Source of the DNA: Deltaproteobacteria bacterium
Lineage (GTDB): Bacteria; Myxococcota_A; UBA9042; CAIXZC01
Direction of reading: 5' to 3'
NCBI GenBank assembly: GCA_016875215.1
Contig: VGRX01000011.1
Location: 1-37,462 of the forward strand
Length of the DNA: 37,462 nucleotides
Part shown: positions 11,834-37,462 of the stretch, piece after piece
Layout of the letters: each line of letters starts with the position of its first letter
Numbering within the stretch: the stretch's first letter is position 1
Notes under the pieces: model-generated
Told to the model about the DNA's origin: nothing
Database searches by the model: none
What the model saw: only the letters and a program-made list of their open reading frames with translations
Translations under genes and position numbers: made by a program

Positions 11834-11851
11834 CGGCATCGCCTCAGCGTC

Positions 11852-15331: not shown

Positions 15332-15393
15332 GAAGATCCTCACTGGTTCGAAGTCGAAAGCCCGTCCCGAGCCTCTCCGCCCGGGCCGCGTGG

Positions 15394-15422
15394 AGGCTAC
15401 TTCCGCACAAGGGCCCTGTCAA
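15394..15422 (-). promoter_or_regulatory. Probable sigma-70 promoter for the Cys-rich repeat lipoprotein
   Basis: On the minus strand a perfect -35 box TTGACA (15417-15422) and TAGCCT (15394-15399) are separated by 17 bases. The predicted transcript starts near 15387 and has a leader of about 55 bases before the ATG at 15331. Confidence 0.5.
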
Positions 15423-15442
15423 CCTGCACAAACCGTTTCCGC

Positions 15443-15459
15443 ACGGACCGTTCGTCGAC
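15443..15459 (+). promoter_or_regulatory. 17-base element shared with the hydrogenase leader
   Basis: ACGGACCGTTCGTCGAC occurs here and, identically and in the same orientation, at 28602-28618. It contains the palindrome ACGG-A-CCGT. Here it lies between two divergent promoters, 21 bases upstream of the minus-strand -35 box and just upstream of the plus-strand one. It may be an operator for a regulator common to both loci; this is inference from the shared sequence alone. Confidence 0.35.
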
Positions 15460-15462
15460 TTC

Positions 15463-15491
15463 TTCCCCTCGCGTTGGATATCAACTAGACT
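15463..15491 (+). promoter_or_regulatory. Probable promoter for the M28 peptidase gene
   Basis: TTCCCC at 15463-15468 and TAGACT at 15486-15491 are separated by 17 bases. The same pair with the same spacing occurs at 20623-20651 on the minus strand. The predicted leader before the ATG at 15517 is only about 20 bases and contains the strong GGAGG site. Confidence 0.35.
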
Positions 15492-15516
15492 ACAGATCAG
15501 CCGAAGGAGGGGGGGA

Positions 15517-17418: not shown

Positions 17419-17423
17419 CTACT

Positions 17424-20594
<3,171 letters not shown>

Positions 20595-20622
20595 CTGTCG
20601 TCCCTCCGACTTCGTGCCTCCG

Positions 20623-20651
20623 AGTCTACGCCAATCCGTCCGGTTGGGGAA
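20623..20651 (-). promoter_or_regulatory. Probable promoter for the MopE-like gene
   Basis: On the minus strand TTCCCC (20646-20651) and TAGACT (20623-20628) are spaced by 17 bases, matching the element upstream of the M28 gene. The predicted start is near 20616, giving a leader of about 22 bases. Confidence 0.35.
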
Positions 20652-20738
20652 GTGCGCTTGCCCGCGATGTGGAAGCCCCTTGCCGAACGGAGGACCGCAG
20701 ATCCGCTCGACATGGACTCCTCCTCCGTTGCGGAGCCG

Positions 20739-20767
20739 TCGACACAGAGCCGTTCCGATGGTAAGCT
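20739..20767 (+). promoter_or_regulatory. Probable sigma-70 promoter for the small lipoprotein gene
   Basis: TCGACA at 20739-20744 and TAAGCT at 20762-20767 are separated by 17 bases. The predicted start is near 20774 and the ATG is at 20794. Confidence 0.4.
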
Positions 20768-20793
20768 CCTTGGGGCAACGGGGAGTGAGGTCC

Positions 20794-21201
20794 ATGAGAT
20801 CCGCGGCATGGTGGGTCATTTGTGCAGTGATGCTGTCGACTGTCGGCAGCGGCTGTCGGCAGGCGGCTGCGCGAGGGGCGGGGGCGTCGGAGGGGACGGC
20901 TCCGATCGGCCTCACCGCTGCGGTGACGAACGACGAAGCCGATGCCGGAACTGCCGGGGAACACGGCGGAGCTCGGGCTCCGGCCGCAACGACCGACGTG
21001 GCATCGCCGCCGGGTCGTGAGCCCCCCGACGCAGAGTCCGAGGAACTGGTGTTCAATGTCAAGATCCCCAAGCCGGAGGCGATGATCTTCGAGAAACGGG
21101 CCGATACGTCCATCCAGCCGATCGATGACAAGAAGAGCTTCCTGGACCGTATCGGTGATCCGGTCGGGAAGGAGCCGCCTCCGTCCGAGGGGAAGGAGTA
21201 G
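20794..21201 (+). CDS. Small lipoprotein of unknown function
   Basis: A 135-residue protein with a signal peptide and lipobox (TVGSGC near residue 18). The next 60 residues are Ala/Gly/Thr-rich and probably unstructured. The last 45 residues are charged and end PPPSEGKE. I recognise no family. The ATG at 20794 has GGGAGTGAGG immediately upstream. It is followed after 51 bases by a MopE-like lipoprotein on the same strand, so the two may be co-transcribed. Confidence 0.65.
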   Translation: MRSAAWWVICAVMLSTVGSGCRQAAARGAGASEGTAPIGLTAAVTNDEADAGTAGEHGGARAPAATTDVASPPGREPPDAESEELVFNVKIPKPEAMIFEKRADTSIQPIDDKKSFLDRIGDPVGKEPPPSEGKE

Positions 21202-21252
21202 CTCGTGGATTCCGGCCCGATTCCCGGTCCCGCCAAGGCGGGGGAGGTCAAC

Positions 21253-23061
21253 ATGCGCGCAGTTCTGCCCTGTCTGGGTGTTCTCTCCGTGTCCGTGATC
21301 TTCGGTCTGTCCTGCGGCTCCGCTCCGGTGCCGAAGCTGGCCGGAGACGGCAGCGGCTGGGAGGTCGACGGGATCTCGGACGGGCTCGAAGGTGAAGGGG
21401 GAGTGACGTGTGACGGCCCGGGATGCGGGAAGGAGGATGTCGTCCTCTCGGAGCAGCGCGGTGGGGATCGTGCGTCATCGGACGATACTGCCGACGGTTC
21501 GGCCGTCGAGGATGTCCTCCCGGACGGGAGCGGCGGTGACGGGGGCGATGCCCTGACCGAGGACGTCGACCCCCTGGACGGCCAGGAGATCGGCGAGGAC
21601 TGCGGTCAGCTCGACGAGGACAACGATTCGGTGCCCGACTGTGTGGACAACTGTCCGATCGTGCACAATCCCGGGCAGGAGGACCAGGACAAGGATGGGG
21701 TCGGGGATCCGTGCGACCCGGACGTCGACGGTGACGGAGTCGACAACATGGAGGACTGCGCCCCGGCAGACCCGACCGTGTACGCAGGGGCGGAGGAGCT
21801 CTGCGACGACGTGGACAACGACTGCAACGGGCTGGTGGATGAGGATCCCCTGGCCGACTGCTCCTGGCTCGGCGTCTGCGAGTCGGGGATGTCCGTGTAC
21901 TGCGAGGACGGCATGGCAAAGTGCAACTACGGGGCGGTCCAGGGGTGGTGCAGCTACGACATCTGCGACGGGCTGGACAACGATTGTGACGGCCAGGCGG
22001 ACGAGGACGATTTCGGGATCTGCTGCGACTGCGATTCGGATCTGCTGCCGCCGCCGGCGTGGTACTTCGAGTGCGATCCTGCCGCTGCCAATCCGGACGA
22101 TGACGGCGACGGCGTGCTCGACGGTGAGGACAACTGCCCCGCAGTTGCCAACCCGGAGCAGGAGGACTTCGACCAGGACCTGGTCGGAGATGCCTGTGAC
22201 GAGGATGACGACAACGACGGCGACCCCGACGGGACCGACTGCGCTCCTCTGGATGTAGCGGTGTTCACCGGCGCTGCGGAAGCCTGCAATGCCGTGGACG
22301 ACAACTGCGATGGGAACGTGGACGAGACCTTCGGTCTTCTCACCTGCGGCATCGGGGCATGTGAGAACTCCGTGGCCGAATGCGCCGGCGGCGCATTGCA
22401 GCAGTGTCTTCCGCTCGAAGTCGCGCTTCCGGAGGCGTGCGACGGGGTGGACAACGACTGCAATGGCGCAGTGGACGACGGATTCGAGGACATCGCATGC
22501 GGCAGCGGGGTCTGTGCAACGGTGGTTTCGGGTTGCAAGGACGGTGTGGTCCCCGAGTGCATCCCGCTTCCCGTTGCCGCACCCGAGGCATGCGACGGAG
22601 TGGACAACGACTGCAACGGTGAGGTGGACGAGGAGCTGGGGCAGACCACGTGCGGCGAGGGACCTTGCTCCTCGACCGTGGACAACTGCGTGGGCGGCCA
22701 ACAGCAGCAGTGCGTCCCCGGCCCCGTCCCGCCCGGGACCTGCAACGCCCAGCCCGCGGTCTGCAAGACGACCACCTACGGTACCGACGCATGCGGAGAC
22801 ACCTGCACCAAGGTCGGACCGCCCAAGTGCTATACCATGCACCCTGCCTGCTTCAACTCCGGCCCGGGAACGTTGACCGATGCTCCTTCGTGCACCACCC
22901 CCAAGGGGCAGTGGGACTGCGGTCTCACGTGCCAGCAGTGGGCCAACAGCATCGGAGCGGACTGCGTTTACTGCAAGAACATTCTGTGCCAGTCCATCAT
23001 GGGGGGGAAGGACATGGCGCAGTTCCAGTGCAACAATCCGCCGGCACCGGCAACCCCGTAG
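21253..23061 (+). CDS. MopE-like Cys-rich lipoprotein with thrombospondin type-3-like repeats
   Basis: A 602-residue lipoprotein (lipobox FGLSC). After an acidic linker there are two calcium-type segments ([18 protein letters not shown] and [15 protein letters not shown]) and five MopE motifs (for example [15 protein letters not shown]). The C-terminal 110 residues are a separate Cys-rich domain with about 14 Cys, which I do not recognise. It lacks the N-terminal Cys-rich module of the other three large Cys-rich proteins. The ATG at 21253 has GGGGAGG upstream; an earlier in-frame Met would precede the signal peptide. Likely surface-exposed and calcium- or metal-binding. Confidence 0.8.
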
Positions 23062-26152: not shown

Positions 26153-27601
26153 CTAGAAATTCCGGATCGTGTCGACGTGTTCACCCGTGCTGTCCACGAT
26201 TTCGGCCTCGATTGCAAGACCGCCATCCAGGCGGTGCGTGGCGCAGGACAGTCAGGGGTCGTAGGCGCGCACCGCCATCTCGACCTTGTTGAGCAGCCCC
26301 TGGTTCACCACGCCTCCGTGGATGAGGGCCTTGGCCGCTGCATTGACCGACATGTTGATGGGCGCCTGGTTGTGGGTGGAGCCCACGATCAGGTTCGCGT
26401 TGGTGATGAACCCTTCCCCGTCGCCGGTGTAGTCGTGGATGAGGGTTCCGCGCGGAGCCTCGACGCAACCCACACCGCGACCGGCCTTGGGGGTGACCTG
26501 GGCCCGGACGTCCTTGGAGAGGATGGCCGGGTCCTGGGCGAGCTGGAGGGCCATCTCGCAGTTGGCAACGAGCTCGATGAGCCGTGCCCAGTGGTAGAGC
26601 AGCGTGAACTGGGCGGGGCGGCCGAACGCTGCCCGGAACTCCTCGAGCTCCTTCTGGGCCAGCGGGGTGGGCATGCGGTCGCACACGTTGATTCGTGCGA
26701 GGCAATTGGCCCGGTAGATGCCCTTGGGGGCAGCGAGGTCCATGGAGAAGCCCTCGCCCCACTTCTTGGCATAGGGCATCTTCACGTAGGACCAGCCCTC
26801 GACGTGCTCTTCGAGGTAGTCGGAGTACTGTTCGTAGGTGAAGTCGTCGTAGCTGCCGTCCCGCTTCATGAGGCGGAGCTTCCCGTCGTAGATGTCCCAG
26901 GTGCCGTCCGCAGTCACCGTTCCGAGGAAGCCGGAATCGAAGTTGCCGAGGATCTTGACCGTGTCGAGGTACTTCGGGAACACGTTCTCCTTGGCGAACT
27001 TGATGGTGAACTGAGCGAACTCGAGCTGCTCCTTGGTTTCCTCGATGATCCGCTGCTGGATGGCGGCGGCCAGCGGGGTGGAGAAGCCGCCGGTGACTGC
27101 CGCCACCGGGTGGATCACCTTGCCCAGCCAGTCCTCGAGCAGCATGGCTCCCTTCTGGCGCAGGTGGACGACCTTGCGGGCCAGGTCGGGGGCGGCGCCG
27201 ACGATGCCGATGACGTTCCGGACCGACGGGTCGGCGTCGGGGCCGATGACGAAGTCGGGGGCTGCGAGGAAGTAGAAGTGCAGCAGCTTGTCCGGGATCC
27301 AGGCCAGGTGCTGTGCCATCCGCCGCAGCTTGACGGCTGTGGGCGGAAGCTCCACGCCGAACACCTTGTCGGTGGCCTTGACCGAGGCCAGGTGGTGGTT
27401 CCACGGGCAGATGCCGCAGATCCGGTTGACGATGCGGGGCATCTCCTCGACGGGCCGGCCTTCCGCAAACTTCTCGAACCCGCGGAGGGCCATGACGTGA
27501 ACGCGGGTATCGTTCACTTCCCCGGCGTCATCGAGCTGGATGACCACGCGGGCGTGCCCTTCGATTCGCGTGACGGGCTGTATCTGGATTGTCTTTCCCA
27601 T
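26153..27601 (-). CDS. mvhA: [NiFeSe] hydrogenase large subunit, selenocysteine-containing, group 3 (MvhA/VhuA-like)
   Basis: Read through one in-frame TGA, this is a 482-residue protein. The N-terminal nickel motif L1 is RICGICPWNHH (Cys62, Cys65). The C-terminal motif L2 is DPULSCATH with selenocysteine at position 450 and Cys453. After the TGA the frame stays open for 32 codons to a TAG at 26153-26155; the residues after His456 form the expected cleaved extension. A conventional reading would stop at 26252 and lose both L2 nickel ligands. Selenocysteine in this position is established for Desulfovibrio NiFeSe enzymes and the methanogen VhuU peptide. The partner small subunit has no signal peptide, so the enzyme is cytosolic. 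GGAGGTGAAGAC precedes the ATG, 15 bases after the small-subunit stop. The alternative, a Cys codon mutated to stop, is less likely given the SECIS-like hairpin. Confidence 0.9.
26219..26251 (-). promoter_or_regulatory. Candidate bacterial SECIS element
   Basis: On the minus strand, 16 bases after the UGA, ACCGCC and GGCGGU form a perfect six-pair stem with loop UGGAU (26219-26235). The loop starts 22 bases after the UGA and has G at its second position, which fits the known bacterial pattern (loop 16-37 bases downstream, G in the first two loop positions). CUGUCC directly after the UGA (26246-26251) is also complementary to GGACAG at 26190-26195, allowing an outer stem. SelB would bind here to recruit Sec-tRNA. 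Confidence 0.7.
26252..26254 (-). other. Selenocysteine codon (UGA) of the hydrogenase large subunit
   Basis: The TGA falls exactly at the first Cys of the conserved DPCxxC nickel-binding motif, between GAC CCC and CTG TCC TGC. Everything on both sides matches the family, so this is a recoded codon rather than the end of the gene. Confidence 0.88.
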
Positions 27602-27616
27602 GTCTTCACCTCCCTC

Positions 27617-28582
27617 CTAGCGAGGTCCGGGCATGCCGGGACGCTGAGGCAGCGGCCGGAGCTTGTTGTGCGCACCGATGAACCGATTGAGGATCAGTCT
27701 CCGGTCGGGGACGCTCTGGGGGTTGATCCCCACCGAGGTGAGGGCGCCCATCATGTCCACGAGCGGGTTGGACGTCTTCTTGATCGGGCCGAAGCAGCCG
27801 CGGCACGGCATGCGAGCATCGATGCAGCGCGGGTTGCCTTCCTTGCCTGCGCATCCGGCCAGGGTGACCGGGCCGAGGCAGAGGAAGCCCTGCTCCATGA
27901 GGCAGCGCATCTTCTGGATCGGCTCTTCCGCTTCGAAGGTGGCGTTGGTCAGTGAGCGCTTGATGTTGGCGCCACCCGCTGCCTTCTTCTCACGGATGAC
28001 CTGACAGGTGTCGCACACGCTGCGCTCGGGCAGCTTGAACTCGGTCTTCCCATCGAGAAGGGCGAGGATCGCTGCCGCGATCCAGTCCGGGTGCGGGGGG
28101 CAGCCGGGCAGGTAGATGTCCACCTTGAGCCCGGGGATCTCGTCCAGGGCGTAGACCCGGTCGAGCAGCTTGGGCACCACCTGGGTCGGCGTTTCGGCCG
28201 GCGGGGTGGTGATGCTCCCCTTGAACACCTTGTTGAGCACGTCCGCGTTGTCCCAAGCATTGGCCTGGGCCGGGATGCCTCCGTTGGTTGCGCAGGTTCC
28301 CAGGGCAATCAGGAACTTGCACTTCTTTCGGAGCTCCAGCGCCACCTCCTTCTGCTCTTCGTTGCGGACTCCACCAGAGATGATCCCGACCTCGCATTCC
28401 GGAAGCGTGAGGTGGGTTCCGTCCCCGTTCGGACCGAAGTACTTGCTGTCCACGAGGGCCGGGATGTGCACCAACTGCAGCTTGGCCGGAATCAGGTCGA
28501 GGATCACGTCTCCCAGGTTCAGAATGGAGATCTCGCAGCCAGAGCACGAGCTGAGCCATTCTGAAACGACTCTCACCGCCAT
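27617..28582 (-). CDS. mvhG: [NiFe(Se)] hydrogenase small subunit (MvhG/VhuG-like)
   Basis: A 321-residue iron-sulfur subunit. The proximal cluster Cys are in SSCSGCE (near 13-16), GTCATNGG and LPGCPPHPD. The C-terminal third adds Cys for two further clusters, including CDTC, FLCLGP and CRGCFGPI. HoxY-type small subunits are about 200 residues with one cluster, so length and extra clusters favour the Mvh/Vhu (group 3a/3c) type. There is no twin-arginine signal, so it is cytosolic. The ATG at 28580-28582 has GGAGGTGG upstream; the longer open frame beyond it lacks any hydrogenase similarity. Its stop is 15 bases from the large-subunit start. Electrons from H2 would pass through it to HdrBC- or Hnd-type partners. 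Confidence 0.92.
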   Translation of the reverse strand: MAVRVVSEWLSSCSGCEISILNLGDVILDLIPAKLQLVHIPALVDSKYFGPNGDGTHLTLPECEVGIISGGVRNEEQKEVALELRKKCKFLIALGTCATNGGIPAQANAWDNADVLNKVFKGSITTPPAETPTQVVPKLLDRVYALDEIPGLKVDIYLPGCPPHPDWIAAAILALLDGKTEFKLPERSVCDTCQVIREKKAAGGANIKRSLTNATFEAEEPIQKMRCLMEQGFLCLGPVTLAGCAGKEGNPRCIDARMPCRGCFGPIKKTSNPLVDMMGALTSVGINPQSVPDRRLILNRFIGAHNKLRPLPQRPGMPGPR

Positions 28583-28599
28583 GTTCCACCTCCATGAGA

Positions 28600-28612
28600 G
28601 AACGGACCGTTC
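28600..28612. promoter_or_regulatory. 13-base palindrome in the hydrogenase leader (candidate operator)
   Basis: GAACGG-A-CCGTTC is a perfect inverted repeat with six-base arms. It lies between the predicted transcription start (near 28631) and the ribosome binding site of the small-subunit gene, a place where a repressor could act. The 17 bases from 28602 are identical to an element at 15443-15459. The regulator is unknown; it does not match the E. coli NikR site. Confidence 0.4.
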
Positions 28613-28637
28613 GTCGACCGACACTTCAAACCGCGCC

Positions 28638-28666
28638 ATTAGAGCAAAGGCAACGCGAGGCGTCAA
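28638..28666 (-). promoter_or_regulatory. Probable sigma-70 promoter of the NiFeSe hydrogenase operon
   Basis: On the minus strand TTGACG (28661-28666) and TCTAAT (28638-28643) are separated by exactly 17 bases. The predicted start near 28631 gives a leader of about 49 bases containing the palindrome and the GGAGGTGG site. It implies that the hydrogenase genes can be transcribed separately from the regulatory operon upstream. Confidence 0.55.
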
Positions 28667-28682
28667 GGGCAATTTCCTACGA

Positions 28683-28715
28683 GGGGAGTGGAATCCCCAA
28701 GCCGGAGTTGGCTTG
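28683..28715. repeat. Two adjacent inverted repeats upstream of the hydrogenase promoter
   Basis: GGGGA/TCCCC (28683-28698, six-base loop) and CAAGCC/GGCTTG (28698-28715, six-base loop) lie side by side, 17 bases upstream of the -35 box. They could be a terminator remnant for the regulatory operon or a regulator site. No T-run follows on the minus strand, so termination is not well supported. Confidence 0.3.
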
Positions 28716-28823
28716 ACGGAAAAACTAGTAATTCGATGGGATTTTAGCATGCTGGTGCGGCGCGGCATCGCGGGTTGTCAGCCGGGAACGGAGACCCTCG
28801 GTGTTATCCAAGAAAAAGTCGTG

Positions 28824-29372
28824 CTACTGCTTCAGGCCGAGGCTCGATTGTTTCTCCAGGACCGTCTCAGCCACGAAAGTCAGGACAGCGCCGTCCCGGA
28901 AGCAGCCTGTTCCAAGCTCTTCCTCCAGCGCTGCGCTTTCCAGGAGGTACGCGGGCCCGTCCCCCACGAGCAGGACCTCCAGCCGGAAGTCGGCCTCGTG
29001 TGCGAGCACGGCGGCCACGGTCTGCCCCAGGTCCCCCAGCGGCTGCCGGTCCGGGTGCGAGAGGCAGAAGCGGGCCTCGACGCGAGTCCCCTTCCCGGGC
29101 ACGGACTCCAGCCGCGCCGAGCCGCCTGCCTGCTCGGCCGCCTGCTTCAGCATCGGGAGTCCCAGCCCGAAGCGTCGCTCGGTCCGGGTGGTCACGAACG
29201 GGTCGAACACCCGCTCCGCCAGGTCGGCGGGCATGCCTCTGCCATCGTCCTCCACCACGATCGACAGGGTGTCCGCTGCCCGGTCCATCGCAACTTCCAG
29301 GCGGATGACGCGTGCGCCTGCGCGTATGCAGTTCTCGATGATGTCCAGCAGGTGAAGGGAGATTTCATCCAT
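28824..29372 (-). CDS. Histidine-kinase-type ATPase (HATPase_c) protein of the hydrogenase regulatory operon
   Basis: A 182-residue protein consisting of a GHKL ATPase domain and a short C-terminal part. Visible are the N-box region (LDIIENCIRAGA), the G1 box VEDDGRGMP, an F box (VFDPFVTTR) and the G2 box FGLGLPMLKQAAEQAGG. There is no dimerisation-phosphoacceptor His domain or sensor domain, so it is not a complete histidine kinase. Residues 120-182 are of unknown type. Its start overlaps the end of the PHP gene by eight bases. Similar stand-alone ATPases sit beside [FeFe] hydrogenase and Hnd genes in anaerobes, where a signalling role is supposed. It is probably the last gene of its operon. 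Confidence 0.85.
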   Translation of the reverse strand: MDEISLHLLDIIENCIRAGARVIRLEVAMDRAADTLSIVVEDDGRGMPADLAERVFDPFVTTRTERRFGLGLPMLKQAAEQAGGSARLESVPGKGTRVEARFCLSHPDRQPLGDLGQTVAAVLAHEADFRLEVLLVGDGPAYLLESAALEEELGTGCFRDGAVLTFVAETVLEKQSSLGLKQ

Positions 29373-30114
29373 GGAGATACTCCGGCGTGACGGCGCCGAT
29401 GCGCAATGCCCGGGCCAGCGTGTCGAAAGACGGGGGGCCTCCTTCCACGACCGTGAAACGACGGCCGATTTCGTGCAGGAGATGCGCGTCGGAGGTAGCG
29501 ATCACAGGTCTTCCCCTGGGCAGCGCGGCTGCCACGTTCTCAACGGCCGCAGCGGATGTCGCCTCTGCCGCATCGAAGTCCAGGCTCGGTGGGACGAAGC
29601 CGAGCTGGCCCAGAATCCCGAATGCCTCCCGGTCCGCATGGGCCAGGATGACCAGCCCGTCGAGGCAGCGGATCCGGCGCACCGCCTCCTCGAGCGAAAA
29701 CGATGTTGCGGCCAGCAACAGCCTCTTCTCGAAGCCGTCCACGCCGCCGTCCTCATCGGCCAGCACCTGGAGTCCGAATGCGTCGGGGTCGTTCAGGGCC
29801 GTGAGCGTATCGAGGCATGCGGCCTGGAGCTGCGCTGCGGCCTGGAGCGTGGGCAGAAGGGCCACCAGGTGGACTTCTTCCACGGTGCAGACCTCGATCC
29901 CCGGCAGCACGACCAGCCGGCTGCCGGCGGCCGCCTCCAGCGCGGCAGCGGCTCGTGTGACCGAGGCAGCGTTTCCCGCGTGGTTGTGGTCACAGACCGC
30001 GATGAGGTCGAGTCCGACCTGGAGTGCCTGCCGGACGATCTCCCGAGGGTGCATGTCCAGGTCGCCGCAGGGGGAGAGGCAGGTGTGGATGTGCGGGTCA
30101 GCGCGGTAGGACAT
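29365..30114 (-). CDS. PHP-domain metal-dependent phosphoesterase
   Basis: A 249-residue protein with the PHP motifs: DPHIHTCLSPCGD at residues 6-18, AVCDHNHAGN, LPGIEVCTVEEVH, ILAHADREAFG and ATSDAHLLHEIG. The metal-binding His and Asp residues all appear present, so it is probably an active phosphoesterase. The fold acts on nucleotide or phosphate ester substrates; which one is not known. It lies between the [FeFe]-like gene (97-base gap) and the ATPase gene (eight-base overlap), an arrangement seen next to hydrogenase genes in other anaerobes. The start at 30114 is forced by the position of the HxH motif, although no good ribosome binding site precedes it. Confidence 0.85.
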   Translation of the reverse strand: MSYRADPHIHTCLSPCGDLDMHPREIVRQALQVGLDLIAVCDHNHAGNAASVTRAAAALEAAAGSRLVVLPGIEVCTVEEVHLVALLPTLQAAAQLQAACLDTLTALNDPDAFGLQVLADEDGGVDGFEKRLLLAATSFSLEEAVRRIRCLDGLVILAHADREAFGILGQLGFVPPSLDFDAAEATSAAAVENVAAALPRGRPVIATSDAHLLHEIGRRFTVVEGGPPSFDTLARALRIGAVTPEYLHG

Positions 30115-30211: not shown

Positions 30212-31897
30212 CTATTTCCCCACTCCCAACTCGTACAGCCTTCCTGCGACCTGGTACGCGGTGAGCGCCGTGGTGAGCAGCGGCAGCCCTTCCTCTTCGG
30301 CCTTTGCCAGCGTGTCCGCTGCCGGCTGCCGGCCGTTGACCAGGACGATTCCGGCCAGGTTGTTGAGCTTGGCGACTGCGACGACGTTGAGATGCGTCTG
30401 GAGGGTGATCCAGAGGATTCCGTCGGCCGCGTGTGCGATGACGTCGGACAGCAGGTCGGAGACGTAGCATCCGGCAACCTCGACGTCGAGGTGCTGCCGG
30501 CCGCTGACCGGGGACAGGGACAGGGACGAGGCGACTTCGGCAAGCTTCATGGTGTTCTCCTTACGTGCGGTTCGAGTTCCACGAGCGGCAAGGACCAGGC
30601 AGTCTCCCACGCTTGCGAGAGAACGCACGACGTCATCCGCGAGCTCGGCGCAGGTCGGGGCGCCGCAGGCGCCGCAGTCGATTCCCGGGAGCGAGGAGAG
30701 CAGCTCCTCCTTCTCGCGTGCCAGCAGGAGGGAGCGCCTGAAATCGGAATCGAGGGGAGGCAGCGGGGAAGCGACGAGGTCGTGCTTGCGCTGCAGCTCT
30801 CCCGAGCGGGCGATGGTGCGCAGCGAGGGGAAGTCGGCGCGCTCCTCCGGGGGGGGCAGCTTGCGGAGGTACTCGATGGCCTTGCTGCGGGCCGGGTAGG
30901 GGTTGTCCACCACGAGGCTGCCGCCGACGCATCCTTCGGGGCAGGCCATGCATTCGACGAGGTCGACGTGCTGGAGGCGTCCCTTCTCGATCTCGTCGAG
31001 GACGCGGCGGACGCTGGGGAGCTGGGCGACGGGAAGATAGTCGGTGTGGTCGGCCTTGCGTTTGCGCCCCCGCCCGGAGCGGGAATCGAGGGCATAGACC
31101 ATGCGGCGGAGGTTCCGGGACATGCCGCCGAGGAAGGCCCAGCCGAGGTCCGCGGATGACGAGCCTTCCCGGGTGAGCTCGCCTCTGAGGCGCATGTGCG
31201 ACAGTGCCGTGAGCACTTCGTGGTAGATCTCGTTGATGGGCAGCACGGCATGCATTGCCCCCCCGTCCGGGCTCTCGTGGATCATGGTATCCACGATCTT
31301 CGAGGGGCAGGGGGAGATGTAGACGATGCCGATGCGGTCCGGTGCGAGGCCGGTCTGCCGCACGAGGCGCTCCCGCACCCAGCGGGCGGCCAGCTCTCTC
31401 GGGGGGCCGCGCGGGACGAGGTTGCCGAGCAGGTCCGGGTAGAGGGTCTGGATGAGCCGGGTGACCGTCGGGCAGTGGGAGGTGATGAGCGGCCCTTCGA
31501 ACCTCCTCGACAGGACGAGCTCGGCCAGCGAGTACAGGTACGCGAGGCAGGCCTGCTCGAGCGACACCACCTCGTCGAAGCCGAGACGGCGCAGCGCCTC
31601 CGCCACGTCGCTGGGGCCCACGTCGGGTTGGAACTGGACGAGCAGGGGGGAGGAGGGGATGGCCACGATCTTCTCGAAGCGGGCGAGGTCGACGACCTGC
31701 GGCGTGCGCGACGTGATGGCATTCTCCCGGCAGGAGCGGATACACTCGCCGCAGTCGATGCACTTCTCCTGGATGACGAGCGGGTATCCCTTCTTCATGC
31801 GGATGGAGCGGGCGGTGCAGGCACGCATGCACGTCATGCAGCCGATGCAGCGGTCGTGGTTGAACCGCAGGCTGCGGTAGGTTTCGACCGCGCTCAT
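30212..31897 (-). CDS. [FeFe]-hydrogenase-like putative sensor fused to a DRTGG domain
   Basis: A 561-residue protein. Residues 17-56 form a 2[4Fe-4S] ferredoxin domain (Cys 17,20,23,27 and 46,49,52,56). Residues about 75-345 are an [FeFe] hydrogenase H-cluster domain: L1 is SHCPTV (Cys142), L2 is SPCPSK (Cys197) and L3 is ECMACPEGC (Cys319, Cys323). These match the four H-cluster ligands, but the proton-transfer Cys of the usual TSCCP is His141. Cys408, 411, 416 and 433 form a four-Cys FeS domain as in RnfB. Residues 450-561 are a DRTGG domain, elsewhere often a separate protein. The missing catalytic Cys and the signalling neighbours point to a sensor rather than an enzyme. It overlaps the upstream ATPase gene by ATGA. 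Confidence 0.85.
   Translation of the reverse strand: MSAVETYRSLRFNHDRCIGCMTCMRACTARSIRMKKGYPLVIQEKCIDCGECIRSCRENAITSRTPQVVDLARFEKIVAIPSSPLLVQFQPDVGPSDVAEALRRLGFDEVVSLEQACLAYLYSLAELVLSRRFEGPLITSHCPTVTRLIQTLYPDLLGNLVPRGPPRELAARWVRERLVRQTGLAPDRIGIVYISPCPSKIVDTMIHESPDGGAMHAVLPINEIYHEVLTALSHMRLRGELTREGSSSADLGWAFLGGMSRNLRRMVYALDSRSGRGRKRKADHTDYLPVAQLPSVRRVLDEIEKGRLQHVDLVECMACPEGCVGGSLVVDNPYPARSKAIEYLRKLPPPEERADFPSLRTIARSGELQRKHDLVASPLPPLDSDFRRSLLLAREKEELLSSLPGIDCGACGAPTCAELADDVVRSLASVGDCLVLAARGTRTARKENTMKLAEVASSLSLSPVSGRQHLDVEVAGCYVSDLLSDVIAHAADGILWITLQTHLNVVAVAKLNNLAGIVLVNGRQPAADTLAKAEEEGLPLLTTALTAYQVAGRLYELGVGK
30550..30562 (-). promoter_or_regulatory. Internal ribosome binding site and ATG at the DRTGG domain
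   Basis: Inside the fusion gene, AAGGAG (30557-30562 on the minus strand) sits six bases before the in-frame ATG at 30548-30550, exactly at the domain boundary (Met450). This spacing and sequence are as good as the true start sites nearby. The gene could therefore yield both the full fusion and a separate 112-residue DRTGG protein (30212-30550). Confidence 0.5.
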
Positions 31898-32343
31898 GAG
31901 GCCTGCTCCGGCGGGATCAGGATGACGGCCTCGAGCCGGGTTCCGTGGCCCACGGTCGAGCGGACGTCCAGGCTGTCGCTGTTGCGCTGGATGTTGGGCA
32001 GGCCCATGCCCGCGCCGAATCCCATCTCGCGGATCTCCTGGGTGGCGGTGGAGTATCCGACCTGCATGGCAAGGCCGATGTCGGGGATTCCGGGGCCGCG
32101 GTCGTCGAACGTCAGCACGATCCGGCGCAGGTCCACGAGCAGGGTCGCGGTGCAGGAGCTGGCATAGATGACGACGTTCATCTCGGCTTCGTAGGATACG
32201 ATGGAGGCCCTCCGGACCAGGGGGGCCGGCAGGCCGAGGCTGCGAAGGATGGCCTTGACCTCGGTGGAGACGGAGCCTGCGTTGGCGAAGTCCTTCCCTT
32301 CGAACCGGAACTGGCGCACGAAGAGTGGTTCGTTGGAGGTCAC
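31894..32343 (-). CDS. RsbW-like anti-sigma-type ATPase
   Basis: A 149-residue protein of the anti-sigma-factor/serine kinase HATPase_c family. The N-box is in SYEAEMNVVIYA, the G1 box is FDDRGPGIPD and the G2 box is GFGAGMGLPNIQR. Length and layout match the RsbW/SpoIIAB fold without other domains. Family members bind a sigma factor or phosphorylate an antagonist. No sigma factor or STAS partner is in this window. It overlaps both neighbours by four bases (ATGA), so it is made in step with the DRTGG protein and the [FeFe]-like sensor. Confidence 0.88.
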   Translation of the reverse strand: MTSNEPLFVRQFRFEGKDFANAGSVSTEVKAILRSLGLPAPLVRRASIVSYEAEMNVVIYASSCTATLLVDLRRIVLTFDDRGPGIPDIGLAMQVGYSTATQEIREMGFGAGMGLPNIQRNSDSLDVRSTVGHGTRLEAVILIPPEQAS

Positions 32344-32726
32344 GTCAGCTTCTCCCTCCGGTGCGCATCGGCTCCGGAGAGGCCGACGGAGCCGAGCAGG
32401 CAGCAGACGTCGAAGGTGCTCAAGGGGGTTGCCAGGAGGACGACCCCGAGAACCCGGGCCTTGTCCAGGGCATCCGGGCCCGGACGCTTTCCCCGGACGT
32501 AGACGATGCCGGCCGCGTCCGCGATGTGAGCCGTCACGACCGATTGCGGGGAAACGAGCCCGGTGACGAGGAGCGCCCCCGCCCCTGCGCTGGCGAGCAC
32601 GTCGCTCATCCGGTCCGAGGCGAACACCTGGGCGACGGTCCTGCCGGAAAGCAGCTCGCTGCCCACGAGAACCTCGAACGAGCAGCGCCGGGCAACGTCA
32701 TCGAGCGTCATCTTCCCCGCTTCCAT
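32340..32726 (-). CDS. DRTGG-domain protein
   Basis: A 128-residue protein that is essentially one DRTGG domain, the regulatory domain found next to CBS domains and in the Pta N-terminal region. Segments aligning with the C-terminal domain of the [FeFe]-like fusion include GSELLSGRTVAQVFASDRMSD and AAGIVYVRGKRP. It may bind a nucleotide or other ligand; none is established. It is the first gene of the regulatory operon and overlaps the ATPase gene by ATGA. The ATG at 32726 follows AGGGGG; an internal ATG at 32711 is an alternative. Confidence 0.8.
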   Translation of the reverse strand: MEAGKMTLDDVARRCSFEVLVGSELLSGRTVAQVFASDRMSDVLASAGAGALLVTGLVSPQSVVTAHIADAAGIVYVRGKRPGPDALDKARVLGVVLLATPLSTFDVCCLLGSVGLSGADAHRREKLT

Positions 32727-32818: not shown

Positions 32819-32912
32819 GGGGGGACTTGGCGTCGGCCCGTCGGGTGGGGTTGCGGTTTCGGGGAACGGGGACGGATGACGGGGCGACCTGTCAGTGGTC
32901 GAGGGGGTGAAC

Positions 32913-33584
32913 ATGGGTCACTTGATATCCGGCCGCAGGTCTGTCCCTGCGTTCCGCACCGAGGTCGAGGCCCGGGCGGGATGCGGCGTGCTTGCCTGCT
33001 TCCAGTGCGGCAAGTGCGGGGCCGGGTGCCCGCTCCAGGAGCACCTGGACTACTCGCCGTCGCAGATCATCCATCTGATCCGATTGGGACAGGAGGAGAC
33101 GGTCCTCGCCAGCAAAGCCATCTGGCTGTGCGCGTCGTGCGAGACCTGTACCACCCGCTGCCCGCAAGGGGTGGATATCGCTCGGGTGATGGATGCCGCC
33201 CGGTCGCTGGCATTCGACCGGAGAGTTCCCTCCGCGGTACCCTCCGTGCCGTCGTTCTACAAGGCAACCCGGGCCAACCTGATGAAGTTCGGCCGGATGT
33301 TCGAGGTGTGGCTCCTGGCCAGCCTCAAGCTGCGTACCGGCGACATCACCAAGGACATGGACCTGGGGCGGAAGATGATGGCGAAGCGCAAGCTGAATCT
33401 CTTCCCGACCTGGAACCGTGTCTGGGAGACCCGGGCCATCTTCAAGCGCGTCGCCAGGATCGAGAAGGAGCGCGCCGCGGAGCGGGCCGCAGATACCCAG
33501 TCCGGCAGCGGATCGGCCGGCGGCGCCGCTGCCTCCCCTCGTGAGGGAGGCCCCGGCAACGCGAGCGGAGGGGGCAACTCATGA
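32913..33584 (+). CDS. hdrC: HdrC-like heterodisulfide reductase iron-sulfur subunit
   Basis: A 223-residue protein with two [4Fe-4S] motifs of HdrC: CFQCGKCGAGCP (Cys29,32,35,39) and CASCETCTTRCPQG (Cys73,76,79,83). A helical region follows, then a Lys/Arg-rich segment and a Gly/Ala/Ser-rich tail of about 35 residues that is not part of the family core. HdrC passes electrons to HdrB. In bacteria such pairs occur with hydrogenase, formate dehydrogenase or Flx modules and need not use CoM-S-S-CoB. The ATG at 32913 has GAGGGGGTG upstream; the GTG at 32895 is less likely. The stop overlaps the hdrB ATG (ATGA). Confidence 0.9.
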   Translation: MGHLISGRRSVPAFRTEVEARAGCGVLACFQCGKCGAGCPLQEHLDYSPSQIIHLIRLGQEETVLASKAIWLCASCETCTTRCPQGVDIARVMDAARSLAFDRRVPSAVPSVPSFYKATRANLMKFGRMFEVWLLASLKLRTGDITKDMDLGRKMMAKRKLNLFPTWNRVWETRAIFKRVARIEKERAAERAADTQSGSGSAGGAAASPREGGPGNASGGGNS

Positions 33585-34450
33585 AATTCGCCTATTTCCC
33601 CGGCTGTTCCCTGCATTCCACGTCGTCCGAGTATGACAAGTCGTTCCGGGCGGTCTGCGCCGCGCTCGGAATCGAGCTCGAGGAGCCGAAGAAGTGGATC
33701 TGCTGCGGCACCACGCCGGCTCACGCGACCTCGCGGCTGCTGGGCGCCGCACTTCCGGTCAAGAACCTCAGGATCATGGAGGAGCAGGGCATGACCGAGG
33801 TCGTGGTACCCTGTGCTGCCTGTTTCTCCCGGTTCAAGTGCGCGGACCACGACATCGGGAAGGACCCGCAGCTTGCTGCCGACGTGGCCCAGGCCATCGG
33901 GGCCGAGTACGGGCGGACCGTGAAGATCCGGCATCCGCTGGAGCTGTTCCTGCGGGAGGACGTGCGGGCGATCCTCCGCCAGAAGGTGGCCAGGCCGCTT
34001 GCCGGACTGAAGGTGGCGTGCTACTACGGCTGCCTGCTGACCCGTCCGCCCGAGGTGACCCAGTTCGACGATACCGAGTATCCCATGTCCATGGACCTGC
34101 TGCTTCGTGACCTGGGGGCAGAGACGATCGACTGGGCGTACAAGGTGGAATGCTGCGGTGCGTCATTGTCGCTGACCAACTCCGATATCATCCTCGATCT
34201 CACGCGCAAGATCATCCTGGATGCGAAGGCCCGGGGAGCCTTGGCGCTTGTCGTGGCGTGCCCGCTGTGCCACGTGAACCTGGATTCGCGGCAGTTCCAG
34301 GCAGAGGAGAAGTACCAGACCAGGCTCGAGATGCCGGTTCTCTTCTTTTCCCAGCTCATCGGGCTGGCACTGGGGCTCTCGGGCAAGGAACTCGGCACGG
34401 ACAAGCACCTGACGGATCCGTCGGCCATCCTGTCCGCGGTCCAGGCATAG
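33581..34450 (+). CDS. hdrB: HdrB-like heterodisulfide reductase catalytic subunit
   Basis: A 289-residue protein with two CCG domains. The first has Cys9, Cys41-Cys42 and Cys78-x2-Cys81 (C-x31-CC-x35-CxxC). The second has Cys151, Cys191-Cys192 and Cys227-x2-Cys230. In HdrB of methanogens these ligate two noncubane [4Fe-4S] clusters that reduce a disulfide; all ligands are kept here, so the protein should be catalytically competent. The physiological disulfide in this bacterium is unknown. No hdrA gene follows; instead the operon continues with NuoE/NuoF-type genes. Start overlaps the hdrC stop by four bases, with a GGAGGGGG site inside hdrC. Confidence 0.92.
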   Translation: MKFAYFPGCSLHSTSSEYDKSFRAVCAALGIELEEPKKWICCGTTPAHATSRLLGAALPVKNLRIMEEQGMTEVVVPCAACFSRFKCADHDIGKDPQLAADVAQAIGAEYGRTVKIRHPLELFLREDVRAILRQKVARPLAGLKVACYYGCLLTRPPEVTQFDDTEYPMSMDLLLRDLGAETIDWAYKVECCGASLSLTNSDIILDLTRKIILDAKARGALALVVACPLCHVNLDSRQFQAEEKYQTRLEMPVLFFSQLIGLALGLSGKELGTDKHLTDPSAILSAVQA

Positions 34451-34461
34451 GGAGGAGAGCC

Positions 34462-34845
34462 ATGCCCAAGCTGTCGATCGAGGATCTCAAGAAGATGCGG
34501 GAGGATGCTGCACGCAAGCGGATCCTGCGGGACGGGGAATCGAGGGTCCGGATCACGATCCACATGGGGACGTGCGGGATCATGTCCGGGGCCCGGGATG
34601 TCCTCAAGGCGGTGCTGTCCGAGGTGGAGGCATCGGACCTGAAGGATACCATCGTGACCACTTCGGGGTGTGCGGGGCTGTGCTCCCGGGAGCCGATGGC
34701 CACGGTGGAGATCGCAGGTCACGCTCCGGTGAAGTACGTGGACCTGACTGCAGAGAAGGTGGTCCGCATCGTGAAGGAGCATATCGCGGGCGGGACGGTG
34801 GTGCAGGAGCTCGCCCTGGCGGTGGGCAGCGAGATGACACGGTAG
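34462..34845 (+). CDS. hndB: HndB-like thioredoxin-fold ferredoxin subunit
   Basis: A 127-residue protein with a thioredoxin-like [2Fe-2S] ferredoxin layout. The first motif is HMGTCGIMSGA (Cys38) and the second is SGCAGLCSREP (Cys70, Cys74). Only three Cys are present in the whole protein, whereas a standard cluster of this fold uses four, so the cluster may be absent or use another ligand. HndB belongs to NADP-reducing hydrogenase operons (hndABCD of Desulfovibrio). It lies 11 bases after hdrB with GGAGGAG in the gap, and 18 bases before the HndA gene. Confidence 0.82.
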   Translation: MPKLSIEDLKKMREDAARKRILRDGESRVRITIHMGTCGIMSGARDVLKAVLSEVEASDLKDTIVTTSGCAGLCSREPMATVEIAGHAPVKYVDLTAEKVVRIVKEHIAGGTVVQELALAVGSEMTR

Positions 34846-34863
34846 TACACGGGAGGGAACGGA

Positions 34864-35352
34864 ATGCAGAAGATTCTGCAGATCGTGGAGAAGTGGGGGG
34901 GCCGCAAGGACTGCCTCATCGAGATGCTGCACGACGTGCAGACGGAGTACAACCATCTGCCCGAGAGCGCGCTGCGGGTCCTGTCCGCCCGGCTCTCCGT
35001 GCCGCTCACGCAGATCACGCACGTGGCGACGTTCTATGCGTCGTTCAGCCTGGTGCCGAAGGGGGATACCCGTCTGCGGGTCTGCATGGGGACTGCGTGC
35101 TACCAGAAGGGGGGCAACCGGATCCTCGAGGCGCTGGAGCGGGAGCTGAAGGTGAAGTCGGGGGAGGTGACCCCGGACGGCGAATTCAGCCTCGAATCGG
35201 CCCGCTGCATCGGCTGCTGCGGCATCGCCCCCGCGCTGGTCGTCGACGATGACGACGTGTTCGGGAAGGTGAACCCGACGAAGATGAAGAAGTTCGTGGC
35301 GGACATCAAGAAGAAGAAGCAGGCCGGGAAGCAGAGCGCGGCGGAGGCGTGA
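34864..35352 (+). CDS. hndA: HndA/NuoE-like [2Fe-2S] subunit
   Basis: A 162-residue NuoE-family protein. The N-terminal helical part contains YNHLPESALRVLSARL and THVATFYASF. The [2Fe-2S] ligands are Cys74-x4-Cys79 (CMGTAC) and Cys115-x3-Cys119 (CIGCC). A short Lys-rich tail follows. In Hnd, Hyd and complex I this subunit passes electrons between the NuoF flavin site and the other clusters. GGAGGG precedes the ATG at 34864, and the next gene starts one base after its stop, so it is firmly part of the hdr-hnd operon. Confidence 0.93.
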   Translation: MQKILQIVEKWGGRKDCLIEMLHDVQTEYNHLPESALRVLSARLSVPLTQITHVATFYASFSLVPKGDTRLRVCMGTACYQKGGNRILEALERELKVKSGEVTPDGEFSLESARCIGCCGIAPALVVDDDDVFGKVNPTKMKKFVADIKKKKQAGKQSAAEA

Positions 35353-35353
35353 C

Positions 35354-37168
35354 ATGGAACCGAGACTGTCGGTGCTGATCTGCAGCGGTACGGGTTGCGC
35401 CTCGAACAAGTCCATGGAAGTCATGGATGCGCTTCGCAAGGAGATTGCGACCCGTGGGCTGGAGCAGGAGGTCGAGGTGGTTCAGACCGGCTGCCAGGGG
35501 TTCTGTGCGGTCGGTCCCATCGTGTATGTCCAGCCGGATGACGTCTTCTACCAGCAGGTCGGGGTCAAGGATGTCCCGCGGCTGGTGGAGGAGCACTTCC
35601 TGAAGGGGCGGCCCTACAAGGACAAGTTGTACGTGCCCCCGATGGGCGGGATGCCGATCCCGAAGCTGATGGACATCCCGTTCTTCAAGAGCCAGGTGCT
35701 GGTGGCATTGCGGAACAAGGGGCTCATCGACCCGGAGAAGATCGAGGACTACATCGCCCGGGACGGCTACCAGGCTCTGGCCAGGGTGCTGACCGAGATG
35801 AAGCCGGAGCAGGTCATCGAGTGCGTGACGAAGTCGGGGCTTCGCGGCCGGGGCGGCGGTGGTTTCCCCACAGGGGTGAAGTGGGCCAGTGCGCGCAAGG
35901 CCTCCGGGGACATCAAGTACGTCCTGTGCAACGGCGACGAGGGGGACCCCGGCGCGTTCATGGACCGCAGCATCATGGAGGGTGACCCCCATTCGGTCCT
36001 GGAAGGGATGTGCATCGCGGCCTTTGCGGTGGGGTCGAGCCAGGGGTACGTGTACGTACGCAAGGAGTATCCGCTGGCCGTGCAGCGCATCGAGGTTGCG
36101 ATCGAGCAGGCGCGGGAGTTCGGGTTGCTCGGGAAGGACATCCTGGGGGCCGGGTTCGATTTCGACGTCGAGGTACGGCGCGGGGCCGGTGCGTTCGTGT
36201 GCGGGGAGTCCACGGCCCTGATGGCCTCCATCGAAGGGAACCCTGGCGAGCCGCGGGCCAAGTACATCCACACGGTCGACGCGGGCCTGTGGAACCGGCC
36301 GTCCTGTCTCAACAACGTGGAGACGTTCGCCAACGTCCCGATGATCCTCCAGCGCGGGTGGGAGTGGTTCAGCTCCATCGGAACGGGTGATGTCAGCCAG
36401 GATCCGTGGGGTGGCAGCAAGGGAACCAAGGTCTTCTCCATTGCGGGTGACGTCAACAACACGGGCCTGATCGAGGTCCCGATGGGGACGACGCTGCGGG
36501 AGATCGTCTTCGACATCGCGGGCGGGTTGCCCGAGGGGAAGCGGTTCAAGGCGGTCCAGACCGGCGGGCCGTCGGGGGGATTCCTCCCGGAGAGCCTGCT
36601 GAACCTCCCGGTGGACTTCGACCGGCTGGTGGAAGCGGGCTCGATGATGGGGTCGGGCGGCATGGTCGTGCTGGGGCACGACAAGTGCATGGTCGACTCG
36701 GCCAAGTTCTTCATCGACTTCACCGCGGACGAATCGTGCGGGAAGTGCACGCCGTGCCGCATCGGGAGCAAGATCATGCTCCAGTCCCTCGAGAAGATCA
36801 GCGAGGGGAAGGCCACGGAGGAGGACGTGGAGCAGCTCGAGCGCGTGGCCCATGAGGTGGCCAACCTCTCGCTCTGCGGCCTGGGCAAGTCGGCGCCCAA
36901 CCCGGTGCTGACCGCGCTGCGCTACTTCCGGGACGAGGTGATGGCGCACGTGCACGAGAAGCGCTGCCCTGCCGGAGAGTGCAAGGCGCTGATCACCTAC
37001 TCGATCGATGCCGGGAAGTGCACCGGTTGCACGCTCTGTGCGAAGAACTGTCCGACCGACTGCATCACCGGCGAGCGGAAGGCGGCGCATGCCATCGTGA
37101 CGGACAGGTGCATCAAGTGCGGTTCGTGCAAGATCGTCTGCAACTTTGACGCGGTGGTGGTCCAATGA
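35354..37168 (+). CDS. hndC: HndC/NuoF-like NAD(P)H-binding flavoprotein
   Basis: A 604-residue protein with the domain order of HydB/HndC. Residues 10-51 carry an N-terminal thioredoxin-like [2Fe-2S] site (Cys10-x4-Cys15, Cys47-x3-Cys51). The FMN site GRGGGGFPTG is near residue 165, followed by the NAD(H)-binding region with CNGDEGDPGAFMDR and FVCGESTALMASIEG. A SLBB-type region and the [4Fe-4S] site CGKCTPCRIG follow. The C-terminus adds two ferredoxin clusters (CTGCTLCAKNCPTDC and CIKCGSCKIVC), which plain NuoF lacks. This is the electron-input/output and, in HydABC enzymes, the proposed bifurcating flavin subunit. Its stop overlaps the next start (ATGA). Confidence 0.94.
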   Translation: MEPRLSVLICSGTGCASNKSMEVMDALRKEIATRGLEQEVEVVQTGCQGFCAVGPIVYVQPDDVFYQQVGVKDVPRLVEEHFLKGRPYKDKLYVPPMGGMPIPKLMDIPFFKSQVLVALRNKGLIDPEKIEDYIARDGYQALARVLTEMKPEQVIECVTKSGLRGRGGGGFPTGVKWASARKASGDIKYVLCNGDEGDPGAFMDRSIMEGDPHSVLEGMCIAAFAVGSSQGYVYVRKEYPLAVQRIEVAIEQAREFGLLGKDILGAGFDFDVEVRRGAGAFVCGESTALMASIEGNPGEPRAKYIHTVDAGLWNRPSCLNNVETFANVPMILQRGWEWFSSIGTGDVSQDPWGGSKGTKVFSIAGDVNNTGLIEVPMGTTLREIVFDIAGGLPEGKRFKAVQTGGPSGGFLPESLLNLPVDFDRLVEAGSMMGSGGMVVLGHDKCMVDSAKFFIDFTADESCGKCTPCRIGSKIMLQSLEKISEGKATEEDVEQLERVAHEVANLSLCGLGKSAPNPVLTALRYFRDEVMAHVHEKRCPAGECKALITYSIDAGKCTGCTLCAKNCPTDCITGERKAAHAIVTDRCIKCGSCKIVCNFDAVVVQ

Positions 37169-37462
37169 GCGAACAGGTAGGCAAGACGGTGAAGATGACC
37201 ATCGACGGACGGGAGGGGGAGTTCCCGTCGGGCATGACCATCCTCGAGGCAGCCCGTCAGATGGGGATCCGGATCCCGACGCTCTGTTACAGCGAGGCGG
37301 TCAGCCAGTACGGCTCGTGCCGGCTGTGCGTGGTCGAGGTGAGCAAGCGGGGCCGCAAGCGCATGGTGATAGCGTGCATGCACCCGGTCGGCGATCTGGA
37401 GGTGCGGACAAGCACGCCGGAGATCCGGGATTCGCGCAGGACCATCGTGGAATTCCTGCCCC
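37165..37462 (+). CDS. HndD/HoxU/NuoG-like subunit, N-terminal part (cut by window edge)
   Basis: The first 99 residues are in the window. They form a plant-type [2Fe-2S] domain with Cys in PTLCYSEAV, GSCRLCVVEV and IACMHPV, as at the N-terminus of HndD, HoxU and NuoG. The end of the segment (RRTIVEFLP) is just before the His-Cys and [4Fe-4S] motifs expected next. Whether the gene continues into an [FeFe] hydrogenase (HndD/HydA), a 240-residue HoxU, or a formate-dehydrogenase-type NuoG cannot be seen. The answer decides the nature of the complex. The ATG overlaps the hndC stop by four bases. Confidence 0.88.
   Translation, partial: MSEQVGKTVKMTIDGREGEFPSGMTILEAARQMGIRIPTLCYSEAVSQYGSCRLCVVEVSKRGRKRMVIACMHPVGDLEVRTSTPEIRDSRRTIVEFLP

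Follow-up and report, generated by a model that had tools for sequence, protein, structure and literature searches.

Group C and group D [FeFe] hydrogenases are proposed H2 sensors, all of which are assumed to carry the H-cluster, with their maturation genes conserved (PMC8163306). For TamHydS, a group D representative, a proton pathway has been proposed (E252-E289-S249-D265), and the E252V and E252D substitutions leave <0.01% of the H2 oxidation activity (PMC10407848). One cluster of this protein is unresponsive to H2, and signalling via redox changes of its C-terminal [4Fe-4S] cluster was inferred to be unlikely (PMC13104023). The literature that we examined reports no signalling output for any group D protein. 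There are precedents for the hydrogenase-like fold without its full cofactor: Nar1 resembles [FeFe] hydrogenases but has no [2Fe]H (PMC12621388), and NiFe-HydABCSL contains a HydA subunit that is free of the H-cluster (PMC8880783, PMC9304861). Here we describe a HydS-like protein encoded in a 37,462-nucleotide stretch of deltaproteobacterial DNA (the window) and compare it with its relatives.

A HydS-like gene next to a NiFeSe hydrogenase

The HydS-like ORF is one uninterrupted frame of 561 aa on the minus strand (30212-31897). The gene order on this strand is DRTGG, SpoIIAB-like ATPase, HydS, (DRTGG), PHP, second ATPase, VhuG and VhuA. The annotated features of the window, which include repeat-rich proteins at 10655-21254 on the minus strand, are:

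10655-11839, minus: DUF2891 protein
11852-15343, minus: Dicty_CTDC repeats
17424-21254, minus: MopE-type metal-binding motifs with TSP3 repeats
26180..27601, minus: VhuA-like [NiFeSe] large subunit (VhuA model, E=5e-135; read-through frame shown to 26180)
27617..28768, minus: VhuG-like [NiFe] hydrogenase small subunit (VhuG model, E=1.4e-56, from residue 67)
28824..29372, minus: second HATPase, histidine-kinase-like ATPase (PF02518, E=2.5e-19)
29365..30114, minus: PHP-domain phosphoesterase-like protein (PF13263, E=3.7e-7; PF02811, E=3e-4)
30212..30550, minus: second DRTGG protein, in frame with HydS in the assembly and a separate gene in relatives
30549..31897, minus: group D HydS-like protein (Pfam, motif table, tree, AlphaFold model, Foldseek)
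31894..32343, minus: anti-sigma-like ATPase (HATPase, SpoIIAB-like; PF02518, E=5e-6)
32340..32726, minus: first DRTGG protein (PF07085, E=9.7e-5, under the curated cut-off)
32895..37461, plus: HdrC-HdrB-[2Fe-2S]-NuoE-NuoF-(NuoG-like, cut by the window end)

The SpoIIAB-like ATPase has the ATP-binding motifs and matches TIGR01925 (E=2.8e-9, under the cut-off); no phospho-acceptor domain was detected in the second ATPase. In the VhuA-like gene, an in-frame TGA was read as selenocysteine (DPULSCATH in the read-through translation), which predicts a NiFeSe hydrogenase, and the listed start of the VhuG-like gene is probably too far upstream. The first-pass annotation had set HydS between a NiFeSe and an Hdr/Hnd operon. 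The neighbours are as it described, but HydS is close to and co-directional with the NiFeSe genes and divergent from the Hdr/Hnd genes only. The interval between the two divergent sets showed no promoter or terminator pattern.

The HydS protein has domain matches far beyond chance (Pfam): two N-terminal ferredoxin-type [4Fe-4S] motifs (Fer4), Fe_hyd_lg_C (PF02906; residues 78-326, E=1e-23) and a C-terminal FeS motif (PF04060; residues 403-434, E=1.3e-10) of the form CX2CX4CX16C (C408, C411, C416 and C433). There was no Pfam match to a PAS domain. These motifs bear out the extra ferredoxin and RnfB-like clusters of the first-pass annotation, and a sequence check likewise found the four cubane cysteines of the H-domain (Cys142, Cys197, Cys319 and Cys323) and His141 at the positions it gave. 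His141 is equivalent to TamHydS A137, and Lys200 to CpI K358, a residue that contacts a cyanide ligand. The AlphaFold2 model of residues 1-437, built from 33 aligned sequences, had a pLDDT of 89.9 and a pTM of 0.89, and its best Foldseek matches among solved structures were [FeFe] hydrogenases (E=3e-20, probability 1.00).

Placement in group D

We collected 80 relatives by scanning genome contigs. In a quick tree, with groups A and C represented by eight sequences from related genomes and with group B and TamHydS left out, the window HydS fell inside the group D set and was split from groups A and C with 99 SH-aLRT support. The nearest rows to its long branch (1.65) are two acidobacterial proteins; RpoB groups the window genome with its class-mates, apart from the sampled Acidobacteriota and Aminicenantes. 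The tree and the operon, together with a domain order and missing PAS domain that agree with the TamHydS description of group D/M2e (PMC8163306), identify the predicted protein as group D [FeFe] hydrogenase-like (TamHydS/M2e type). The group A motifs TSCCP, MPCxxK, FGxxGGVMEA and EVMACPGGC are absent, their counterparts being TSHCP, SPCPSK, AFLGGMSRN and ECMACPEGC, and the NCBIfam group A model scored only 83 bits against a cut-off of 406. Neither of the domains that mark group C on the same chain (PAS and/or histidine kinase) was found in the window HydS; in the group C relatives, the same H-domain and C-terminal FeS motif come joined to a full histidine kinase.

The expectation that the protein would fall outside catalytic group A was borne out, its group D placement being well apart from group A among the groups sampled (A, C and D). 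The proposed Cys-to-His change at the proton-transfer site was not. The position of TamHydS A137 (CpI C299) is Cys in 0/81 aligned group D relatives, being Ala, Phe, Thr, Ser, Val or other residues, with His in the window protein only. Group D is without the group A Cys, so we rejected a within-family loss of this residue.

The surrounding genes are conserved as well. Among the 64 relatives with enough flank, the first ATPase is nearby in 63 and the second in 59, at least two DRTGG genes lie near HydS in 60, and a PHP gene does in 60. Local BLAST typing placed a group A HydA in the same locus in 31 relatives, VhuA or HdrB genes in 29 relatives and the window, and a NuoG-like gene only in five; 16 loci were untyped, many of them on short contigs. 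The DRTGG-ATPase-HydS-DRTGG-PHP-ATPase block accompanies HydA in one clade and VhuGA, NuoG or HdrBC in the other. In L003 (genome G039), a 37%-identical relative from a class-mate genome, both DRTGG genes are upstream of HydS.

The junction between HydS and DRTGG

The C-terminal part of the open frame scores under the Pfam cut-off for DRTGG (19.8 versus 25.2 bits), and homology to separate DRTGG proteins backs its identity. The relatives have a HydS frame that closes shortly past its last Cys and encode the DRTGG protein in a frame of its own. Around codons 426-436 of the window gene, the third-position GC of the HydS reading frame drops from 0.93-1.00 to 0.40-0.53 and that of frame +1 climbs to 0.73-0.80. 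Frame +1 reads LPLVELEPHVRRTP and then a TGA overlapping the DRTGG ATG (ATGA; 30550), which has an AAGGAG upstream; four-base overlaps are also present at both upstream gene pairs of the HydS operon. The simplest reading of the joint is probably a one-base frameshift, either true or from the assembly. The frame switch in codon-position GC and the separate genes in relatives make a real HydS-DRTGG fusion, as first annotated, unlikely, even if the DRTGG homology itself is supported by the separate proteins.

The frame switch at the 3' end could also be taken, with the branch length of 1.65 and two features private to the window sequence (His141 and an insert at residues 266-284), as a sign of a decaying gene without function. 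We regard such decay as very improbable: every Fe-S ligand Cys is kept, codon-position GC over the HydS gene is high (0.886), the AlphaFold2 model is confident and the genes around HydS are intact.

Maturation genes in the genomes with HydS

The window genome is a draft of 5.9 Mb (94% complete, 857 contigs) with one PF02906 protein, HydS itself. Profile searches of this genome recovered no HydG and no HydE, and the HydF model returned only a background GTPase match (5.6e-11, under the curated cut-off) of the kind seen in all 14 control genomes. The search does work, since the same models find HydE, HydF and HydG in genomes of Clostridia and Coriobacteriaceae (G064 and G087). The first-pass annotation had made its H2 sensor depend on maturation genes, and none of the three was found in this 94%-complete genome.

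The same pattern extends to other genomes. HydF or HydG was over the cut-off in 0/40 genomes that have a HydS protein without a HydA-strength PF02906 match (hereafter maturase-less), which belong to Aminicenantes, WOR-3, Ignavibacteria, Zixibacteria and others and include two single-contig chromosomes (CP070825.1, G075; CP070834.1, G092). The genomes of L102 and L110 were counted among the 40 by close kinship in the tree, without a PF02906 search. HydE was searched in 38 of the 40, one of which (G082) encodes a HydE-like protein on its own that narrowly misses the cut-off. A few have a second PF02906 match, these being group D paralogues, one 149-bit KSB1 protein and one 121-bit fragment. The KSB1 protein (G055:C8:5569-6246; 687 aa frame), from the genome of L034, which has no HydF or HydG, is possibly a group C-type sensor in the same maturase-less situation. 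We found no report of maturase-less group D proteins in the open-licence literature searched.

By comparison, HydA-type genomes (those with a HydA, or with an untyped locus from an [FeFe]-operon lineage) contain HydF or HydG in 25/40 cases, a difference from 0/40 with a Fisher p=2e-10 that ignores relatedness. The remaining 15/40 (37%) have neither gene over the cut-off. They are the genomes of L050, L061, L070, L081, L088, L090, L091, L093, L096, L098, L100, L101, L103, L108 and L109, mostly Firmicutes MAGs with one Coriobacteriaceae and two Bacteroidetes, and reflect draft gaps or real absence. Many of the comparison genomes are MAGs and, given these 15, a single draft without maturases proves little. 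Draft quality cannot be dismissed for any one genome, but as the sole cause of the absence it is unlikely in view of the 0/40 count and the two single-contig chromosomes.

Proton pathway and active-site residues

Working from an alignment that did not include TamHydS, we located E252 as the Glu of the SGGE motif via the printed mutagenesis primers (S-G-G-E-A-F) and took the Glu in F-F-E-G-L-A for E289. S249 and D265 were assigned by spacing, which fits: D265 comes 13 residues after E252, not counting the private insert of the window protein, and E289 comes 24 after D265. The equivalents in the window HydS are Met259 (E252), Glu315 (E289), Leu256 (S249) and Ala291 (D265), so that only E289 is kept. 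E252 is Glu in 31/31 proteins from [FeFe] operons versus 7/38 maturase-less proteins, and D265 is Asp in 30/31 versus 0/38, the latter having Ser (27), Ala (8), Gly (2) or Thr (1). In contrast to these losses, none of the 69 proteins lacks E289 or any of the four Cys, and Lys200 is present in 68/69 (37/38 maturase-less), the exception being L003 (SPCSALM). The first N-terminal [4Fe-4S] motif has also lost its second Cys (CxGRMxC) in most maturase-less relatives (among L032-L111), but not in the window protein.

E252 changes once on the tree and the operon type switches twice (D265 was left out of this count). We therefore rejected many independent losses of E252; the tree indicates that the residue losses are a few old evolutionary events seen many times, and Fisher values overstate the evidence because the E252 loss is one change. 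The seven maturase-less proteins with E252 (those of KSB1, WOR-3 and one set of Aminicenantes, plus L003) are all without D265, a pattern that would fit stepwise decay after the operon switch. Judged from these alignments, the group D proton pathway has been dismantled in the maturase-less clade, and the conservation of Lys200 and E289 appears to exceed what pure relaxation or simple decay would predict.

These residues bear on two further explanations. The H-domain fold is what would be expected of a catalytic hydrogenase or part of one, an option that we consider barely credible for a group D protein with no group A proton-transfer Cys, a broken group D pathway and no maturases found. An H2 sensor with a true H-cluster, its maturases having been missed or its cofactor made by another route, is less far-fetched and still improbable. 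The four Cys and Lys200 are conserved, many HydA-type MAGs are also without detectable maturases, and the window genome is a draft in 857 contigs. Against it are the absence of HydF and HydG from all 40 such genomes, two of them single-contig chromosomes, the lack of any other [FeFe] hydrogenase in the window genome, and the replacement of E252 and D265. The first-pass annotation had favored an H2 or redox sensor over an enzyme. The preference for a sensor stands, by group D placement apart from group A; the H2 half is not supported, given the undetected HydEFG and the two missing pathway residues, which leaves the redox (Fe-S) half as the better one.

Proposed function

We propose, with a probability of about 0.6, that the window protein is an H-cluster-free Fe-S redox sensor in a conserved DRTGG/ATPase/PHP module and not an H2-reactive enzyme. 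No H-cluster is expected without HydEFG, and the H-domain would probably hold a [4Fe-4S] cluster only. Together with the three accessory [4Fe-4S] sites, this would form a chain of four cubanes without H2 chemistry. HydS would most likely read the low-potential electron pool (reduced ferredoxin or NADH) and, as gene content suggests, pass the redox state to the co-encoded ATPase, DRTGG and PHP proteins. The latter could then tune the [NiFe(Se)]/NuoEF-type, probably electron-bifurcating, hydrogenase. The recurrence of the maturase-less pattern across several phyla suggests that a group D branch was kept as plain Fe-S redox sensors after the neighboring hydrogenase became [NiFe].

The main rival, which we rate as unlikely yet worth weighing, is by analogy an assembly or insertion factor (Nar1-like) for the Fe-S subunits of the neighboring hydrogenase. 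The H-domain and ferredoxin sites would carry clusters, with assembly being powered or edited by the ATPases and the PHP protein. Such a role agrees with the occurrence of the module next to both [FeFe] and [NiFe]/NuoG-type complexes, with Nar1 being an H-cluster-free homologue in Fe-S assembly (PMC12621388), and with the assumed roles of HydD, HydP and HisK of the NiFe-HydABCSL operon in maturation and/or regulation (PMC8880783). However, the fusion of group C relatives to full histidine kinases points to signalling, and the HydA-linked members keep the H2-pathway residues.

A variant of the redox sensor reading, speculative and rather doubtful, takes the retention of the four Cys and the cyanide-contacting Lys to mean that the emptied [2Fe] pocket binds another cofactor (e.g., [2Fe-2S], as proposed for Nar1) or a small anionic ligand. 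If true, the hydrogenase fold would have given these sensors a new active site.

More broadly, the survey delineates a group D branch with members in several phyla: searches of its genomes recovered neither HydF nor HydG, its proton pathway appears dismantled and the rest of its regulatory module is kept. The hydrogenase beside its maturase-less HydS is [NiFe]/NuoG-type where typable, instead of HydA. If the redox sensor reading is true, H2 chemistry was either not needed for sensing by the module or separable from it, and [FeFe] hydrogenase annotations overstate H2 metabolism in Aminicenantes and similar lineages. The maturase-less and HydA-linked clades offer a natural comparison that makes the question of group D sensing testable.

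Comparison with known systems

TamHydS of Thermoanaerobacter mathranii (group D/M2e) shares with the window HydS the two N-terminal [4Fe-4S] motifs, the H-domain and the C-terminal four-Cys FeS motif. It also has no PAS domain and no group A Cys, and is encoded beside a histidine-kinase-like ATPase gene (PMC8163306). However, artificially matured TamHydS has a bound H-cluster and catalyses H2 turnover, whereas the window genome has no maturases that we could find and its HydS has replaced E252 and D265. The group C HydS proteins (TmHydS) and HydS-histidine kinase fusions are alike in the H-domain, the C-terminal FeS motif and a proposed sensor role. They differ in having PAS and/or histidine kinase domains on the same chain, the window ATPases being separate, and the tree splits the groups.

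Nar1/IOP1 is also hydrogenase-like, with cubane sites and no [2Fe]H subsite (PMC12621388), but it is eukaryotic and works in cytosolic Fe-S assembly; the likeness is by analogy. The NiFe-HydABCSL complex (NiFe-Bfu) of Acetomicrobium mobile combines NuoE/NuoF/NuoG-like, [NiFe] and HisK-type genes in one operon, as the window does in two divergent gene sets, and includes a HydA subunit without an H-cluster (PMC8880783, PMC9304861). In that system, however, the H-cluster-free subunit is the HydA of the enzyme complex and not a HydS regulator.
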